Source: Cavenderia fasciculata
Taxonomy: Eukaryota > Evosea > Eumycetozoa > Acytosteliales > Cavenderiaceae
Direction: 5' to 3'
Assembly (NCBI RefSeq): GCF_000203815.1
Contig: NW_004457695.1
Location: 1,178,001 to 1,242,000 of the forward strand
Length of the DNA stretch: 64,000 bases
Both the position numbers and the translations under genes were made by a program. The notes under the pieces were generated by a model. It did no database searches, was not told the DNA's origin, and worked only from the letters and a program-made list of their open reading frames with translations. Positions 1-11,095 of this stretch are shown here, piece by piece. Position 1 is the first letter of the stretch, and every line of letters starts with the position of its first letter.

Positions 1-2751
1 GGACTTGCACACTTACAAATGCAACCACAAATAGAACAACATTCACTCGGTCGACAAGATATGTGTCCCATTCACCAATACAACTACGATATGGGTTACC
101 GACCACCACCCAATCTTTATATAAGAAATTCAAGAAATGATAACCCCAATATTAGCATACATGTCGATATTGATAAACGATGGAAGCGACAGTCATTGGC
201 ACTGGTATCAAAAAGAGTATTTGAATTGGTATCGACCACTCTCTTTACCGACGGTGTTCATTTTTGGAGCCGACCAGAGACACGTACAATCACATCAAAA
301 AGAAATACTGTGTCATCAAGAATCCAACCACTCTTTACTTGGTCAAACCCTTTCATTATTCATATCACAAACCATTTTATGTTGACAATGAAGCATTGAA
401 ACAAGTAAGAAAGGTACACATCCGGGGGGAGATCCCATCTGAGCCCAGACAATTGCCAATTGACATTATGACGATGCTATCGGAAGCAATGCCCAAGCTC
501 AGGAGTATTGTTCTGTATGACCACGTTAAAGTGGTTCTCGTTAGAGCAATACCATACGCTTCCTTTAACAAACTCAGATCAATCAATTTTCTCAATGCCA
601 TTCCAACAAACTGCGTTTTCAAGCACATTGGGAAAACATTACTTGTACCTGGTACTCGTATCACCAAGATTCTACTTCCCTTCTTCTTTGACTGGAATAC
701 CTTGGATGGGACTGTCAAACGAAAACTAAGAGTCATATCATTGTTTTCCAGTTTTATGCAAATCAAACAAGATGATTTTCCAAAACTAAAGCATATACAT
801 TTTGGTGGACGTTGGACAGATACAATATCATTGGTACCTGCAAGTGTCGATAAACTTACTTTTGACAACTTCCCTCTATACAGGAGTTTACCCAATTATT
901 TTCCACACATCAGAATAGTCAGATTTAAACGTTATAGAACCGATCCTAAACACCAATTTACAGTTACTAGTTGTTATAATGGTTTCAATTTTAATCTAAC
1001 CAACATCAACAAAATTATTATACATTCACCATATGATATTTTACAAAGTTATGTTGATCTGTACAACAAAATAGGATATCAATTTATCGGTTCTTCAACA
1101 ATGATAGATAATAATAATAATAATTGTAAAAAATTTATATTTAAAAAATTGGAAAATATTAATAATAATAATTATAATAATATAGATAATAGTAATAGTA
1201 TTTCAACAACAAATAATAATCAACCATTTGAAAAAAGATTACCAAATTATGTTATGCGTAATATTATATCGATGGTTTGGAATCTAAGAGATAGATGTAC
1301 ATGTATTTATGAAGAGAGTTTTATGAAAAGATTGGAACAACCTGGATTGGAATTTTTAAACGATAAGGAATTTGTTCAACACTATCACTCTATCAAAAAT
1401 GAATGTGCTGTTCATTTTTCAACAACTAAACTATTTACACCTCAACACCATACAATAGCAGAATCAACAAGATCAAAACTACAACTAGCACTCATATCTA
1501 AAGATATTTTCAGATTTGTATCTAATCATTTATTCAACAATATTATCTTTCTCAACAACAACGATTTTTATTTTCTTGATTATAATAATAGGTATCGTAT
1601 GCATCGAAACAATCCAAATTGTGTATTTAAAACCATTCGATCACTTGTCATTCACACCCCTAAAATTAATTATGGTTTTGAATATAGTGAAGAGGATTAT
1701 CAAACAATTACAACAATCAAGTATCAAAGGATATCAATGATACCACCATCTCTTGAATTGTTCTCATGTTTGACCAAATTAGATATTAGAGATTGTCCGA
1801 TTCAATACGATGCCCTCATGTTTCTTGATCTAGCAGAAACATTAACAGGAAAATCGATCACCAAACTCTACTTTCCATCAAGATGCGTCAGTGCCTATTC
1901 GATACTCTCTCAAGATATCAAGCTCTCTCTACGATGCATCGTAACCAATCTCACACAAGATGTCAACTTGGACGAGTTTCCAAATTTGGTTGCATTGGTT
2001 GTACTCGATTGTAGCTCAACTACTATTGGTCAAACATTAAAACTACCACCTAAAATCAAAAAGATTACAACAGATAAAAAAGCAATATTAATTCTCAATC
2101 TAACAACAATATCCACACTCAAGATATTATACAACAAATGGGATTGTCTTGAAATTCTACCTATATTAAACCAATTATCAACTGCCAACCAAATCACAAA
2201 AGTTATCATTCAAATCAAATCGATTCAACCATTATTGGATATTTCCCAAACTAGTTTCCAACTCGATGGTAGTGTCTCCAAACAAATATGTTCAGAGGGC
2301 AATGTTAAACAAGCCAATAATCTAATCTATCGTAGAAAACCATTGTTGCAAGCATATATCGATATTGTTGTGGTTCCCTCCCAACAACAACAAAAAGAAC
2401 AACAACAACATATCCCTTTATCAACACCAAAGTCAAATGAGGAAATTGTTAAACAACAAACCCAGACCATTAATAATAATAATATCAACCAACAATCAAG
2501 TGATAATAATAATGTCACAGATAATAATAATAATGGATGTTTAAATCGACCTAGACGACAACAACATCAACATCTACTACCACCGCCACCACCACCACCA
2601 CCACCTACAATTATTCAGCGACCAAAAGTGCCACTTAAACAACAACAGGTCATGACAGTTTTACCTCAATCAAATAATCAACTACCTAACCAGCCAAGTT
2701 TTAAAACCAAGCAACAACAACAAAAAAACAAACATTACAACCTTTTAATAA

Positions 2752-2782
<31 letters not shown>

Positions 2783-3733
2783 GCCATTTCACGACAATCG
2801 CAACCAAATAATCAACAACTTGTACACACTCCAAATCAATACCAACAACAATTTTACTTGCCTCAACAAAGCAGATCACAACATCAACAACTTGTACATG
2901 CTCCAAACAGCCAACCCTTTTTAGTTTATCCTCAATCACAACAATATCAACATCAGCAACAACCAATGACTGGGCCTTCGATCATTCAACCAAATCAACA
3001 AAGCATAAAACAACAACAGCAACAACAATCCCAATATCAAAGCATAGTACAACCTCTACCATTACAACCACAACTTGTACACGCTCCAAATGGCCAAACT
3101 TTTTTAGTTTATCCACAACAACAAGAACAAGCAACGATGATTTTACCCTATTATCAACAACAACAATTTGGCACACCCCAACAAAGCATAGTACAACCTC
3201 AACAACACCAATCGTTACCCTTAAGTGATCAAATCTCAGGTCAACTCCATCAACAACAGCTGCAACAACAACAACAAACCCTAATTGGAGGAATTGGTCA
3301 ACCTCACCAGCAACAAATGATCGATTTACCGACAACAAATTATCAATACCAACATACAAATCAGCAACCCGTATGGTTAAACAACGCCGGTATTGTAATG
3401 GGTCAGCAACAAGAACATTATCAATATCAACAACAACAAGTGCATCAAAACCAGCAATCAAACTATAACAACTATGAAATTCAAAATACCTCATTTACAA
3501 ATAATAATAATAATAATTACAATTATTCCAATGACAATCAATTTGTATCAACCATACCTACCACCACCACCACAACTACTTTAAACAACGCGAATAACTA
3601 TATTGTAAACGACCACAACATAACAGGAAATACATATACAACAACAACAACTGCACAACAACATCCTCAAATGATGTTACAACAACAACAACCATTCATT
3701 TGGGTCGAATCTTACAATCTAAATAATCAATAA
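1..3733 (+). pseudogene. F-box-like/leucine-rich two-module protein, copy A, with Gln-rich tail; frame interrupted
   Basis: This is a dictyostelid-type F-box/leucine-rich family member that starts before the window. Position 1 is already in frame and matches copy B at about 4471. The first module contains an F-box-like segment (LALVSKRVFELVSTTLF) followed by leucine-rich strands. A second module starts near 1228 (LPNYVMRNIISMVWNLRDR, then LALISKDIFRFVSNHLF near 1490) with its own leucine-rich strands to about 2340. The tail is rich in Gln, Asn and Pro. Two breaks are visible. Near 259-266 two extra T shift frame 1 to frame 3 relative to copy B. At the A7 run 2724-2730 one base is missing relative to a frame that reads Asn-rich then Gln-rich protein to 3733. 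The longest open piece is 264-2924, which has no ATG at its start. F-box proteins usually recruit substrates to SCF ubiquitin ligases; that role is inferred. It is a probable pseudogene, or intact if the breaks are sequence errors. Confidence 0.65.
2560..3733 (+). repeat. Low-complexity Gln/Asn/Pro tail with LVHAPN-type repeats
   Basis: This is the coding 3' part of copy A. It holds a polyproline stretch (about 2578-2606), AAT runs and CAA runs. In the frame ending at 3733 the unit QLVHAPN plus FLVYPQ occurs twice (near 2890 and 3070). A weaker copy, LVHTPNQ, lies near 2820, in a frame reached only after the A-run shift. The units suggest local tandem duplication inside the tail. No folded domain is recognisable. 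Confidence 0.6.
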
Positions 3734-4071: not shown

Positions 4072-5636
4072 ATGAAAAGAAAAGAAAGAGAGGACGAGGT
4101 GGATGATAATATTATCACCCTTGATGAAGAAGAAGAATATACAGAGGAAGAGTTAAAGACAATTTATCGAAAAGATATATGTTATCATCGATCTACAAAT
4201 AAACAACAACATCTTACAACAAACAATAATAATGATAATAATAATAATGATATAACATTAAAATATTATCATCATAGATATTTAGATGATTCAAGTGTTG
4301 GTGGTGTTGGTGGTACAGTGCTACCATGGTTTATCATCGAGAGGATATTGACATTGGCATCATACAATGCAAATATTTGTACGTGTGTACACAATGATGC
4401 TCTACGAGATGTTATGGAGTTATTGGAAAGCAAACAATACGCACTAAATACTATGAATACGAAAGGACTAGCTCAATTACAAATGCAACCAATAATAGAA
4501 CAATCACTCTGTCGACAAGATATGTGTCCCATTCACCAATACAACTACGATATGGGTCACCGATCACGACCCAACCTTTATTTAAGAAATTCAAATAATA
4601 ATATCATTGGCAGGCGTCTCGATGATGGTAAATGATGGAAACGACAGTCATTGGCACTGGTATCAAAAAGAGTATTTGAATTGGTATCGACCACTCTCTT
4701 TACCAAAGATGGTGTTCATTTGGAACCGACCAAAGACACGTACAATCACATCCAAAACAAACATTGTGTTATCAAGAATCCAACCACTCTTTACTTGGTC
4801 AGACCCTTTCATGACTCATTTCACAAACCATTTTATGTTGACAATGAAGCATTGAAACGAGTAAGAAAGGTACACATCCAAGGTGCAGTCCCAACTAAAC
4901 AACAACCTTTGGTAAAAGGTATTCTGACGATGCTATCGGATGCAATGCCCAAACTCAGGAGTATTGTTCAGTATGAGAGAATCGACGTGGCTCTTCTCAG
5001 AGCAATACCAAACGCTCCCTTTACCAATCTCAGGTCGATCAATTTTCTCAATGCCACTCCCACAGAAATGGCTTTCAATCACATTGATAAATTACTTGTA
5101 CCTGGTACTCGTATCACCAAGATACTACTTCCCTTTTTTTTTGACTGGAATGACTTGGATAGGACGGTCAAACAAAAACTAAGAGTTATCTCTCTTTGCA
5201 AACAAGCTTCAATCGAATAGGCAAACCAAACAAGAAGATCTCCCAAAACTCAAGCATATATATTTTGTTGGTGGGCATTGGCAAAATCCAACAGCAGTAC
5301 TGGTACCAACAAGTGTCGATAAACTTTCATTTGACACGAGACCAGGGAACGCAAAAGTACTCAATAACTTTCCAAATGTCACAATAGTCAGATTTAAACA
5401 TATTGGATACGATCCTCAATCCCATTATACAGTTAATGGTTGTTACAATGGTGTCAATTTTAAACAAACCAATATTAAAAAAATTATTATTCATTCACCT
5501 TTTGATATTTTAAAAGGTGATGTTTCTCGATACAAAGAAATAGGTTACCAATTTATCGATTCAACATTGATAAATAATTTTAAAAAATTTATATTTAAAA
5601 AATTAGAGAATATTAATAATAATAATAATAATATAG

Positions 5637-5672
<36 letters not shown>

Positions 5673-6920
5673 TAGATAATATAGATCATTCAACTACCAC
5701 AACAACAAATAATTTAATAACTAATAACAATAATTTTGAAAAAAGATTACCAAATTATATTATGCGTAATATTATATCGATGGTTTGGAATCTAAGAGAT
5801 AGATGTACATGTATATTTGAACAAAGTTTTATGAAAAGATTGGAACAACCTGGATTGGAATTTTTAAAAGATAAGGAATTGATTCAACAATACTACTCTA
5901 TCAAAAATGAATGTGCTGTTCATTTTTCAACAACAATAAGATTATTTATACCTCAACACCATACAATTAGAGAATCAACAAGATCAAAACTACAACTAGC
6001 ACTAATATCTAAAGATATTTTCAGATTTGTATCTAATCATTTATTCAACAATATTATATTACCCAATAATAATAATAATAATTATAATAATCAAAATATT
6101 ATTAATAATAATAACTATCTTGCTCATCGAAACAATCTAAATTGTGTATTTAAAACCATTCGATCAGTTGTCTGTTACAACGCTAATAATAATGGTTTTA
6201 AATTTAATGAACAAGATTATCAAACAATTGCATCAATCAAGTACCTAAAAGCAACGGAAATACCACCATTGTTTCCAAACTTGACCAAATTGGATATTAG
6301 AGATTGCTCGATTCCATACGATGCTCTAATATTTCCTAAACTAGCAGAGGCATTAAAAGGAAAATCGATCACCAAACTCTACTTTCCATCAAACTGCATC
6401 AGTGCCTATTCGATACTATCTGAAGATATCAAGCTCTCTCTACGATGCATTGTAACCAATCTCTCACAAGATGTTAACTTGAACGAGTTTCCAAATTTGG
6501 TTGCATTGGTTGTAATGAATATTAGCTCAACTACAATTGATCAAACATTAAAACTACCACCTAAAATCAAAAAGATTACAACAAATCAAGAAGGAATAAT
6601 AAGAATCAATCCTACGGTTCCCACACTCAAGATATTATACAACGAGATGGAATATCATCAAATTCAACCTATGTTGAACAAATTATCATCTTTCAGCCAA
6701 ATCTCAAAAGTTATCATTCAAATCAAATCGTATTGTGATCTTTACAACACACCTTCCGAGTCTTGTTTCCAACTCGATGGTAGTCTGTCCAAACAAATTT
6801 ATTCACAACAGGGTAATACTTCCCAAGTCAACAATGTAATCTATCGAAGAAAACAAAATATCAATATTGTCCATCTCAACAATCAATAGATAATAATATA
6901 AATAAATTAAATCAACCTCC

Positions 6921-6954
<34 letters not shown>

Positions 6955-8366
6955 ATCCCCTTACCACCAACACCAAAACCAACTCAGAAAAGAAATGCCA
7001 AAACCAAACGACAACAACCTCAACAACATCAACACCTACTACCTACAATTATTCAACAACAACAACCAGTTCAACAAGTCCACAATAATAATAATAATAA
7101 TAATAGTGCGTTCCCAAATCAACCTCAGCAACCATCACCAATATATTCTAAAAATGGATCATCGAAAGTGATTTGTCGATTTGTAAATCTAAATTTTAGA
7201 TGGGATTCAAAAGTTTTAAACATCCCCATTCCAGATCAAGCAACTTTGGAGATGGCTAAAATGATGTTTTATATCAAATTTGACCTTAAAAACTCACCAG
7301 AATACACCGAGAGTGAATACCAACACTTTAAGTTTTACTATAATGACCAACCAATCCAATCCCATTCCAAGTTTATCTATGAATTCGATCTCCAAGATGG
7401 ACACTTTATTCGAGCAGAGTGGGAATCAAAGTGGAAAACGGTGCAAGTGCAAGGTTTTGAAATGGAGATACTCTCTATGAGAATCCAAGACGACACTCTG
7501 CTCGAAGACATTGTCAAAGCCTATTTCCAGGGTTGCCCCCCACCATATGAATACAAAAACTTGCGCGTAGAATACAACGGGGTTCGATTGGATCTTACTG
7601 GTGACGTTGGTAGCAGCCAAATCAAAAAAAACTCGTTCCTCAAAATTGTATCATCCTCTGACATTATCCATGTGCATGTTATACCATCGTGGAACATTGG
7701 GGAAAAAGAAATCTATGCACTTCACAAACAGACCACAGTCCTTTCGAAATTGGTAGACTCTTTTCTCAAAAAGCACCAACTCCATCCCAGACAAATCAAC
7801 TTTACAAGTGCCTCGACCGGTGCTGTGATCGATCCAAACAAACCATCACTCGACCAAGGTCTTGAAATGGACTCTGTCATCCATGCCAATCTTATACTCT
7901 CAAGAATAGATGTAACCTACCAACCCCATACAGTACCATACTTGCTCAGCACCAATACTTGCTTTGAGTCTTTGATACAACGATTCTGCGAGAGACTCAA
8001 TATCAATAGATCCACTGTGCAATTTGTTTATGACAATAAGAAATTGGTGCCAGAAGAAACACCAGAGCATATCAAGATGGGTCCACAGGCAAACATACAG
8101 GTTACATCAAACGGTACTACTGTTCAGCAATAGTTGAAGTAAGACTGATTGGAAAAGATGCAGGAAGCTATATCAAGATGCACACTCACAACCCTTTTCC
8201 ACTCGAAATTCTCATGGACACCTTTTGTGATCAACACAAACTCAACAAACATGATATCCTCTTTACTTTTAATGGCATTAAAATACAACCAAACGATACA
8301 ATAGTAAGCATTGGCCTACGGGACTCTGATATTATTGAAGCGAGAACAATCCAACACATTCATTAA
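4072..8366 (+). pseudogene. F-box-like/leucine-rich protein, copy B, fused to tandem SUMO-like domains; frame interrupted
   Basis: This paralogue of copy A retains the N terminus: an acidic/basic leader with an Asn tract from the ATG at 4072, then LPWFIIERILTLASYNAN, then the F-box-like LALVSKRVFELVSTTLF near 4651. The second module (LPNYIMRNIISMVWNLRDR) starts near 5744, and leucine-rich strands run to about 6860. Gln-rich linker and five SUMO-like repeats follow. Four interruptions are seen: an in-frame TGA at 4633-4635 where copy A has CGA (Arg); a frameshift around 5190-5215; another around 6850-6885; and a one-base shift around 8110-8130. The protein sense continues across each break, and GT-AG introns do not explain them. 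An F-box joined to ubiquitin-like folds would fit ubiquitin or SUMO signalling; this is inferred. It is a decaying gene or carries local sequence errors. Confidence 0.65.
6890..8366 (+). CDS. C-terminal part of copy B: poly-Gln linker and five tandem SUMO/Rad60-like beta-grasp domains
   Basis: Frame 1 is open from about 6850 through the poly-CAA linker to the stop at 8131-8133, so this is the tail of copy B and not clearly a separate gene. Four beta-grasp units are visible. They start near 7168 (CRFVNLNFRW), 7441 (QVQGFEMEIL), 7668 (IHVHVIPSW) and 7900 (RIDVTYQ). The fourth has the SUMO-like signature FVYDNKKLVPEETPEHIKMG. After a one-base shift, a fifth unit starts near 8133 (VEVRLIGKDAG) and ends with LFTFNGIKIQPNDTIVSIGL and DSDIIEA, the SUMO pattern before the processing site. 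No terminal Gly-Gly is seen, so conjugation is unlikely. Similarity is judged by eye. An internal ATG near 7168 could start an independent product. Confidence 0.6.
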
Positions 8367-8438: not shown

Positions 8439-11095
8439 TTATTTTCTTTGATTCTTTACCTTGAAACCACCAGAGAAACCACCAGTATTAACATTCTTGC
8501 CCCATTTTTCACGATGTTGTTGTTGATGCTTTTGCATTGCATTACCATTGCCATTATTACGATTTGAAAACATGACTTTATCAATATTCTTTGGATCAAA
8601 TCTATTTTCATAAGAACCTTTACCATGAACCGATTCATATTCCATCTTTGATCTAAGATTATTTGATTTCATTTCGAAATGGTTGACATCAGAGACATCA
8701 ATCTTTCTCTTTACCTTTTTAACTCTTCCCTTGTCCATTTCTTCGTCGTAATCATCTTTTTGTCTTTGAACGAGTTTGAGAGATGGATCCATAAGTAGTT
8801 CATTTTGAGCCTTGACATTTTCATCTTGTTCTTCAATATCATCCCACTTGGCAACATTTGAAATACCTCCAAACTGATTTGGTGATTGTCTTTGTGATTG
8901 TTTGGCCAACATTTTTCCAACATTTAATTGTCTATTTGCATTTGAGGCAGCCTTGGCATCAATCATTGATTGAATTTCAGATGTTGAAACCTTGTCTTCC
9001 CAATTTCTAACATTAACTGTAGAAGCATTTGGTTGATTCAACTTTTGTTTCTTTTTAATTTCTTCTTGTTCTTCTAGTTGTTGAATATCTTCCAATTCTT
9101 TTCTTTTTAATACAGTTGTTGGTTTTTCAGTTGGAACAACCTTTGTATTGCTAGTGACAGTAGTAACTGTTGAACTAGAACTACTAGTAGTTGTAGTAGA
9201 AGTAAAAGAGACACTACTCTTTATAAAGGTAGATGGTGAATTGACACGTCTAGAGTAGAAAAGAATATAGGCACGTTGACCTAGAGCCGTTGGTTGATTG
9301 ACCGATGACACAAAATTATCATTCATATTGTGCCATAAATTAGTGGATCCCTTTACATAACAATAATAATGTCCACTATTAGTACTGCCTCCTGAATGAA
9401 CCAATACTCCATATAAATCATAAACTGCATCTTTCTAAAAATAAAAAAAGAAATAAATAAATAATTAATTAATTAAATATTAAATATTATTATTTTTCCT
9501 TTTTCTTTTCTGCTTACAGTAGAATTTGACATATAGGGAGATAAATCCAAAGTTGATTCATATTGAATTTGACGATTACTTTTTGAACCATTATAATTGA
9601 AACGTTTGAGTTGAATGGTAAGGATGGAAGGAGCAACATGAACAGTCATTCTTTTACTGGCACGAACCAATTTTTTACATTTGCAACATTTGTATTTGTT
9701 GGCACCGTCCAAATACTCGGCCTTTACAAATTGTTGCATTGCCTTTGTTATACTATCCGATGTGTGAATATCAACTGAAAGATCCATAAATGGATCAAAT
9801 GTGTTGGATTCGTACGAACATTGAGTACATTTGACTTGACTCTGTAGATAGCCACCAAATATAGATCCAATGACAGTAGTCATAGAGTCACGTGGAGTAA
9901 CAGATCCCTTGGCATATTTGGACAAGCAAACCTTTTGACAACCTTCCAAGATGAAACGGATAAACTCGTGAGAATCCTCTTGACGACCTAATCTAAATCC
10001 TGGTGCAAACTTTTTAAGATTGATAGCAATTTCCTTGGGAGTGATGGCACGACCAACACCAGATGGTTCATGTGAACGAACAATATGACGTTCAAGTGAG
10101 CAGAATATACAAAATCCTTGTGTCTTGCAAGTCTTGGTATGTTCATGTGACACCATATAGTTGTAGAGTGGTGGTGTATAGGTAAGACACTGAAGAACAG
10201 CGTTCATGAAACAAGTATTACCCAAATTCTCAAGACCAGGTCCAATCTTTTTAACACCTTTCCATTCCATCAATGATGGTAACTTTTCAACATTGAATAA
10301 TACTTTTTTGGGTGGATGTAAGATATTATCGTCAAGTGGCTCTGGTTTTTTGACCATCTGTGTTTTAGTGGTTAATGAAGAGGATGATGAAGAAGAAGAT
10401 GAAGTTGTAGTAGTTGTAGTTGTTGTTGTTGTAGTGGTTGAAATCATAGTCTTGTTGGCAAATGGATTTGGCAAAGTTGGAGTTGAGACTTGTTTGTTGA
10501 TAGGTTGATACTTTTTCTTGAGCGCAGCATTTGGATCTACTTGTGTTGCCGATTCTCTAAATACAATGGCACGATGTAATAATGGTTTTCCACTATGTTG
10601 GAGTGTTGTTTCCAGTTTGTTCTTTTTCTCCAACATTAATTGTTTACTCATTTGACCAAGTTGTTTTGTTTTGGCTTCTTGTTCTTTTTTCGCTTTCAAA
10701 TCCATTGCAGATGTTTCCTTTTCCTCCTCTTCCTCGGTCTTTTCTTTTGTGTATCTATCTTCCTCTTCTTCATCATCATCATCAACTTGCATTTTACCAC
10801 TAATCTTATTATCATAATGAGTGATAACAGCAATTTCTTTTGTTTGTTGAGATTTAATATTATTGATATTATCTTGTAATCTCTTTTTAATTTGTAATGT
10901 CTCTTTACTAATAGGTAATAGTTGTTGTTGATGTTGTTTAAATGATGATTTCTTTTGTCTTGCTATCTTTCTATTTTTCATCATTGCCACTGCTTTGTTT
11001 GGAGATGGAGAAGATAAAGATGAAGATATAGTCAAGTTCTTCTTTCCACCTGTCAACACAGGTGAAGTAGGAGGACTATCTATTGCTACAGGCAT
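8439..11095 (-). CDS. Ubiquitin carboxyl-terminal hydrolase, USP36/USP42 type
   Basis: This is a deubiquitinating cysteine protease of the USP (C19) family. The exons are 11095-9518 and 9434-8439, joined in phase 0 (donor GTAAGC, acceptor TTTTTAG), giving 857 aa. The catalytic core follows a disordered basic/Ser-rich N terminus. The Cys box LGNTCFMNAVLQCL lies near residue 290 and the Asp-containing GRQEDSHEF near 375. Two CxxC zinc pairs (CTQC and CKCKK region) follow. The His box GGSTNSGHYYCYVKG lies near 540, with its catalytic His in exon 2. The tail is Lys/Arg-rich, with WDDIEEQDE and a Gly-rich end, resembling nucleolar USP36, which acts in ribosome biogenesis. The nucleolar role is inferred from this resemblance. 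All catalytic elements are present, so the enzyme should be active. Confidence 0.92.
9435..9517 (-). other. Intron of the USP gene
   Basis: On the minus strand the donor GTAAGC lies at 9517 and the acceptor TTTTTAG ends at 9435. Removing it joins ...MSNST to KDAVYDLYG in frame and brings the His box into the protease domain. Without splicing, the frame stops at 9473 before the catalytic His. Confidence 0.85.

Follow-up and report, generated by a model that had tools for sequence, protein, structure and literature searches.

We analyzed a 64,000-nucleotide stretch of the Cavenderia fasciculata genome (contig NW_004457695.1, here C14, positions 1178001–1242000; "the window"), in which the locus at 4072–8366 (C14:1182072–1186366) joins an F-box-like, leucine-rich-repeat-like (LRR-like) half to a row of SUMO-like domains. 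Very probably, this locus is a chimeric pseudogene: the SUMO-like tail of a remodeller gene was copied behind an F-box-like relic, and the composite then decayed. We favour this reading because the locus carries four stops and three frame changes, has no native-looking intron to bridge them, and holds an array homologous to part of a CHD1-like gene. An earlier note, made from sequence alone, had proposed a single F-box protein ending in five SUMO-like domains; the SUMO-like array stood up to profile searches, while the single reading frame and the F-box did not. Most likely, that interpretation is to be largely replaced by a decayed chimera in the window, with the CHD1-like remodeller and its SUMO-like chain as the real lead.

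The reading frame is broken at four points

One continuous reading frame had been thought to link the F-box, a poly-Gln stretch and the SUMO-like units. We found instead that the frame changes three times and is interrupted by stops at 4633, 5218, 6887 and 8131. In a three-frame translation, the coding signal lies in frame mod 1 at 4072–5217, in mod 2 at about 5222–6886, in mod 1 again at about 6890–8130, and in mod 0 at about 8135–8363. The first part of unit 1 of the F-box-like/LRR-like member (4072–4632; all features described here lie on the plus strand unless stated otherwise) ends at a TGA (4633–4635), at a position where a paralog upstream in the window reads CGA. Unit 1 continues in the same frame from 4636 to 5217, up to a TAG at 5218–5220, and its last segment (5187–5217) shows a net difference of +10 nucleotides (nt) to the same paralog. 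The end of unit 1 and all of unit 2 follow in the second frame (5222–6886), up to the TAG at 6887, after which a Gln/Asn/Pro-rich tail (6890–7132) returns to the first frame. This third break falls in a low-complexity stretch (6855–6930) and is less clear than the others. The last stop, a TAG at 8131–8133, falls where 10 nt present in the CHD1-like copy are missing, a deletion that puts unit 5 out of frame with units 1–4; apart from this gap, the 1232 alignment columns contain only two in-frame gaps of 3 nt.

Introns might have bridged these breaks, and we listed GT..AG candidates of 46–250 nt in searched ranges over all four, obtaining 15 at 4633, 12 at 5218, 15 at 6887 and 11 at 8131. As a yardstick for native introns we used one intron of the CHD1-like gene (98 nt, 80% AT, GTATGT...TTTTAG), which restores the frame of that gene. 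All 53 candidates are 55–70% AT and in this respect unlike the native intron; they were rejected, with one marginal exception at 6813–6889. The locus is thus neither one open frame nor, beyond this marginal candidate for one of the four breaks, a frame restored by introns.

Four to five SUMO-like units without a conjugation end

The second half of the locus does encode SUMO-like units, as the earlier note had proposed: Pfam Rad60-SLD matches 7156–8130 at E = 1.8e-18 (in three stretches) and 8175–8363 at E = 7.3e-9. In a scan of the window's own genome, which like all genome scans reported here covered 31.0 Mb in 21 contigs, only units 4 (7900–8112; E = 4.2e-6) and 5 (8136–8363; E = 5.5e-8) exceed the curated Rad60-SLD cut-off on their own. 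Units 2 (7432–7656; E = 0.022) and 3 (7657–7902; E = 0.067) fall below it, and unit 1 (7177–7422), a weak unit without a Pfam match, has no Rad60-SLD match in the genome scan. Unit 5, in the third frame, lacks its first residues. Profile–profile comparison of the units gave 93.8% for the pair 4–5, 72.8% for 3–5 and a weak 15.3% for 1–5; the remaining seven of the ten pairs reached 0.06–1.4%, about what shuffled controls give (maximum over all pairings 3.3%). The units have diverged strongly, with 11–29% identity to unit 5, and, searched against the PDB, a profile of units 1–4 finds SUMO sequences by way of its unit 4 part (best E = 5e-10). Because of the Rad60-SLD cut-offs, the profile–profile comparison and the PDB match, we regard units 4 and 5 as certain at the level of sequence profiles, units 2 and 3 as likely and unit 1 as possible. 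For units 2–5, these profile matches point to a beta-grasp fold; AlphaFold, run on units 1–4 as a single sequence, returned a mean pLDDT of 34, which is unusable.

Two further elements of the earlier description hold. The poly-Gln linker is real, in a window whose sequence is AT-rich and contains poly-Asn/Gln tracts, and the row of units, four of them with profile evidence and the first one weak, has no conjugation end: the window array closes on IQHIH and the CHD1-like copy on SSFGN, so that neither carries the Gly-Gly by which SUMO modifiers are conjugated. When viral contigs were scanned with the profile of the SUMO-like units, 82 pattern matches came up, none of which was confirmed as a relative.

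The array is a probable copy of the tail of a CHD1-like gene

Searching the genome with units 1–4 returned seven places: the window itself, C14:82915–83871, C21:509154–510119 and four at C21:511834–512780. The match at C14:82915–83871 is 81% identical and lies in an open frame of 701 codons. At the DNA level, homology begins at 7133 and ends at 8351, and this segment is 87.5% identical (1078 of 1232 columns) to C14:82874–84102, the 3′ end of a CHD1-like gene at about C14:77,000–84,120, on the same contig and 1.1 Mb from the window array. There, the SUMO-like array forms the last exon of the remodeller gene, its five units are all in frame, and a stop follows SSFGN; units 2–5 of this copy match Rad60-SLD at E = 0.017, 0.005, 9.5e-7 and 5.9e-7, a pattern like that of the window units. 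The earlier note had named a separate gene at 7168–8366, revealed by transcripts, as grounds for abandoning its reading; what we found is a separate origin, as a CHD1-like tail, and by DNA comparison rather than by transcripts.

The exons of the C14 gene encode, in order, Chromo (E = 1.7e-10), SNF2 (5.6e-38 and 1.8e-32), Helicase_C (3e-24), HTH_CHD1_Hrp3 (2.1e-5, below cut-off), a polyglutamine linker and Rad60-SLD (5.7e-25, four stretches), and we infer that they make one protein. The gene thus has the SNF2 ATPase with Helicase_C of CHD1-type remodellers, together with a single detected chromodomain and a SLIDE match below cut-off (E = 0.0096). We call it CHD1-like because of the chromodomain and the match to the CHD1-type helix-turn-helix (HTH), which is close to the cut-off of 27 bits (24.9 bits in the gene itself; 26.9 in the genome scan, or 27.1 with neighbours). 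At E ≤ 0.1, six places in the genome match this HTH; two fall below cut-off, and the one at C14:1422072 is by far the strongest (3.1e-20). Only the place at C14:82249 has Rad60-SLD matches near it; the other five have none within 100 kb. (Distances of F-box and Rad60-SLD matches to HTH or family places, and the family motifs described below, were compared by eye.) Since the SUMO-like array accompanies only C14:82249 and the HTH at C14:1422072 is far stronger, the bearer of the array is, judged by these matches, a divergent CHD paralog and not the most canonical CHD1. In a literature search on CHD proteins, SUMO-like domains and Dictyostelium, which returned mostly listings and passages, we found no CHD protein with SUMO-like domains. 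Dictyostelium discoideum has three CHD proteins according to PMC5378177, in which no word beginning with "SUMO", "ubiquitin" or "domain" occurs and which therefore does not bear on their domain layout.

The remaining places lie on contig C21. The match at C21:509154–510119 is 52% identical to units 1–4 and comprises four units in an open frame of 662 codons, whose Pfam matches at E ≤ 0.1 are ubiquitin-like only; it is an older copy of the array, on a different N-terminus. The four overlapping or adjacent places at C21:511834–512780 look like one broken copy. On the minus strand of C21:505000–514900, we noted by eye a group of tandem genes with a repeated N-terminal unit, one of which has the open four-unit SUMO-like array and its neighbour the broken one.

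The F-box-like half belongs to a family outside the Pfam F-box profiles

The proposed F-box was not recovered. A Pfam scan of this half covered 4072–4632, 4930–5217 and 5762–6886, with 4636–4929 and 5222–5761 lying outside it, and found no family at E ≤ 1; neither PF00646 nor PF12937 is detected there. Unit 2 matches at least 42 places in the genome, several of which belong to one gene. None of these 42 places coincides with a match of PF12937 or PF00646, which hit 87 and 63 places, respectively, at E ≤ 0.1; no such match lies within 10 kb of the family, the nearest being 13 kb away (by eye). The eight long open frames of relatives that were tested (8 of the 11 printed, several ending at the locus edge) likewise contain no Pfam F-box. 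Members of the family consist of two repeated units each, with the motifs LPxxII, CTC, C-x2-H and SKxxF (by eye). Among solved structures, a profile built from 13 family sequences matched LRR proteins only weakly, with FBXL17 (E = 0.011) ranking under designed LRR proteins; the LRR character of the family is weakly supported. The family is an observation in its own right: its proteins are LRR-like and have two units each, and none of the eight frames tested has a meaningful match in Pfam; possibly, it represents an F-box with a Cys/His insert.

The upstream paralog in the window (1–2924) starts before the window and is frame-shifted near 261, and no SUMO-like tail was found on it. It aligns with the member at the locus at 2357 identical of 3010 aligned columns, and the protein encoded by 5762–6886 is 72% identical to that of 1254–2345. 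Both F-box-like copies in the window are broken in unit 1. Compared with the upstream copy, 5240–6853 has a pairwise omega of 0.75 (95% 0.59–1.02), a ratio indicating little constraint on this part. The Q-rich tail after 6890 has motifs in common with the paralog's tail, such as IPL-TPK and RQQ-QHQHLLP, which are read in the paralog's own frame; the SUMO-like array uses that frame too. Because tail and array agree in frame, the two may have been fused in frame from the outset, although an in-frame junction would arise by chance alone with a probability of one third.

Decay, constraint and alternative explanations

Taken together, we infer the following course of events. The 3′ end of a CHD1-like remodeller gene, with its five-unit SUMO-like tail, would have been duplicated, and the duplicate would have landed behind the Q-rich end of an F-box-like/LRR-like family member, possibly in frame. 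The composite F-box-like/SUMO-like locus would then have decayed, while the intact form of the array would remain at its likely source (C14, about 77,000–84,120).

Several results weigh against complete or long-standing decay, or against the identity of the parent. Units 1–4 are open over 325 codons. Their pairwise omega to the CHD1-like copy is 0.51 (0.34–0.79), and that of unit 5 is 0.31 (0.14–0.66), though unit 5 is now out of frame. For comparison, the CHD1-like and C21 arrays give 0.49 (0.35–0.70). When neutral decay was simulated with 60 or 80 substitutions (2000 runs each), the array stayed free of stops in 6% and 2% of runs, respectively, and in the real array amino-acid codon changes outnumber silent ones by a factor of 2.24, close to the 5% points of the neutral distributions (2.06 and 2.24). 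These values suggest that the array may have been under constraint after copying, until recently or still in part, and hint at constraint after the duplication followed by recent loss. The candidate intron at 6813–6889 (77 nt, 70% AT, GT..AG) would rejoin the second and third frames. With regard to the parent, its ATPase matches a CHD1 chain best among solved structures (1.9e-92), with a small lead over ISW1 (6.4e-91) and CHD4 (7.8e-91), which follow close behind. Furthermore, some of the frame shifts could be sequencing errors, since 454 reads were used for this species (passages of PMC5282741).

On this evidence, it is conceivable, though rather unlikely, that units 1–4 (about 6820–8130) are still a working gene or 3′ exon, whose product would be a shortened SUMO-like chain, made by itself or through splicing to F-box-like unit 2 via 6813–6889. 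This would account for the open frame of 438 codons, the low omega values and the scarcity of stop-free runs under neutrality, whichever number of changes is assumed; the 77-nt intron candidate has the right phase, and the older C21 copy likewise has four units in an open frame of 662 codons. However, the first in-frame ATG lies at 7252, within unit 1, and the 5′ part of the candidate intron is coding in the paralog, with a donor (GTAATA) and an AT content (70%) that depart from the native example. The F-box-like portion is itself broken at 4633 and 5187–5217 and shows the higher omega of 0.75. Moreover, with the C21 array as outgroup, the two branches carry similar numbers of changes: 17 amino-acid and 8 silent ones for the window, 15 and 4 for the CHD1-like copy (30 amino-acid and 16 silent changes could not be placed). 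These counts do not show constraint on the window branch by itself, and some of the constraint is that of the CHD branch.

An assembly artefact, in which the chimera would stem from a misjoin or from errors in sequencing, is highly improbable. The D. fasciculatum genome was sequenced with dideoxy and 454 reads (passages of PMC5282741), but three of the four breaks are one substitution and two net 10-nt differences and not single-base homopolymer slips. The array, 12.5% diverged from the CHD1-like copy, is not a misplaced second copy of that array, and an F-box-like paralog lies directly upstream. Least credible of all is that the locus encodes a working F-box protein carrying five SUMO-like domains: the units are real and the Q-rich tail is in frame with the array, but the frame is broken several times, which contradicts a single frame at the DNA level, the F-box goes undetected in the window and across the family, and the array very closely resembles the CHD1-like tail.

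A predicted remodeller with a built-in SUMO-like chain

By itself, the window feature is most likely a decayed chimera, and its value lies in pointing to a CHD1-like remodeller that ends in a SUMO-like chain. SUMO chains normally recruit partners reversibly. In the parent protein, a chain without Gly-Gly would be non-conjugated and act as a permanent mimic of a SUMO chain; by analogy with the two SUMO-like domains of RENi proteins, it would most likely bind partners with SUMO-interacting motifs and couple them to the remodeller. Such a protein, carrying its own SUMO-like chain, would offer a natural test of whether fused units replace SUMOylation in recruiting chromatin partners. More tentatively, and with rather less confidence than doubt, we consider that within this one social-amoeba genome four to five fused SUMO-like domains may have been copied as a cassette to three or more unrelated N-termini (the CHD1-like remodeller, the C21 gene family and the F-box-like gene), where they would serve as a SUMO-chain mimic that is permanent and cannot be cleaved. 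In that case, the CHD1-like remodeller would carry a "SUMO chain" of its own, and the copy in the window would be a recent attempt at fusion that has failed or is failing.

Near the SUMO-like array, on the minus strand of the window at 9473–11095, we noted by eye a ubiquitin-specific-protease-like signature, GLENLGNTCFMNAVLQCL, in a reading frame.

Comparison with known systems

The closest parallel is the RENi family (Rad60, Esc2, NIP45), whose members PMC549199 describes as fusions with SUMO that could imitate it and have partners in common with it. Like the array studied here, these chromatin-linked proteins have C-terminal SUMO-like (Rad60-SLD) domains without Gly-Gly; they are proposed to be stable SUMO mimics, and mycetozoan members are known (PMC549199). 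RENi proteins differ in that they typically have two units after a polar, low-complexity N-terminus, whereas here four to five units follow a remodeller or an F-box-like relic. A probable RENi homologue of this genome, identified by eye, lies at C5:3215970–3216571 with two Rad60-SLD matches, separate from the CHD1-like array.

With F-box/LRR (FBXL) proteins, the family in the window shares LPxxII...SKxxF motifs, seen by eye, and the weak LRR profile match to FBXL17; it differs by having no Pfam F-box and by motif halves about 50–110 residues apart with conserved Cys/His between them (by eye). SUMO and poly-SUMO chains resemble the array through its unit 4 part, whose profile matches PDB SUMO sequences, but the array is genetically fused, lacks Gly-Gly and consists of units that are strongly diverged from one another. 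Finally, the parent gene agrees with CHD1-type remodellers in its chromodomain, its SNF2/Helicase_C ATPase, its CHD1-type HTH match (close to the cut-off) and CHD1 as the best solved sequence, and departs from them in having a single detected chromodomain and in ending in a polyglutamine stretch followed by a SUMO-like array.

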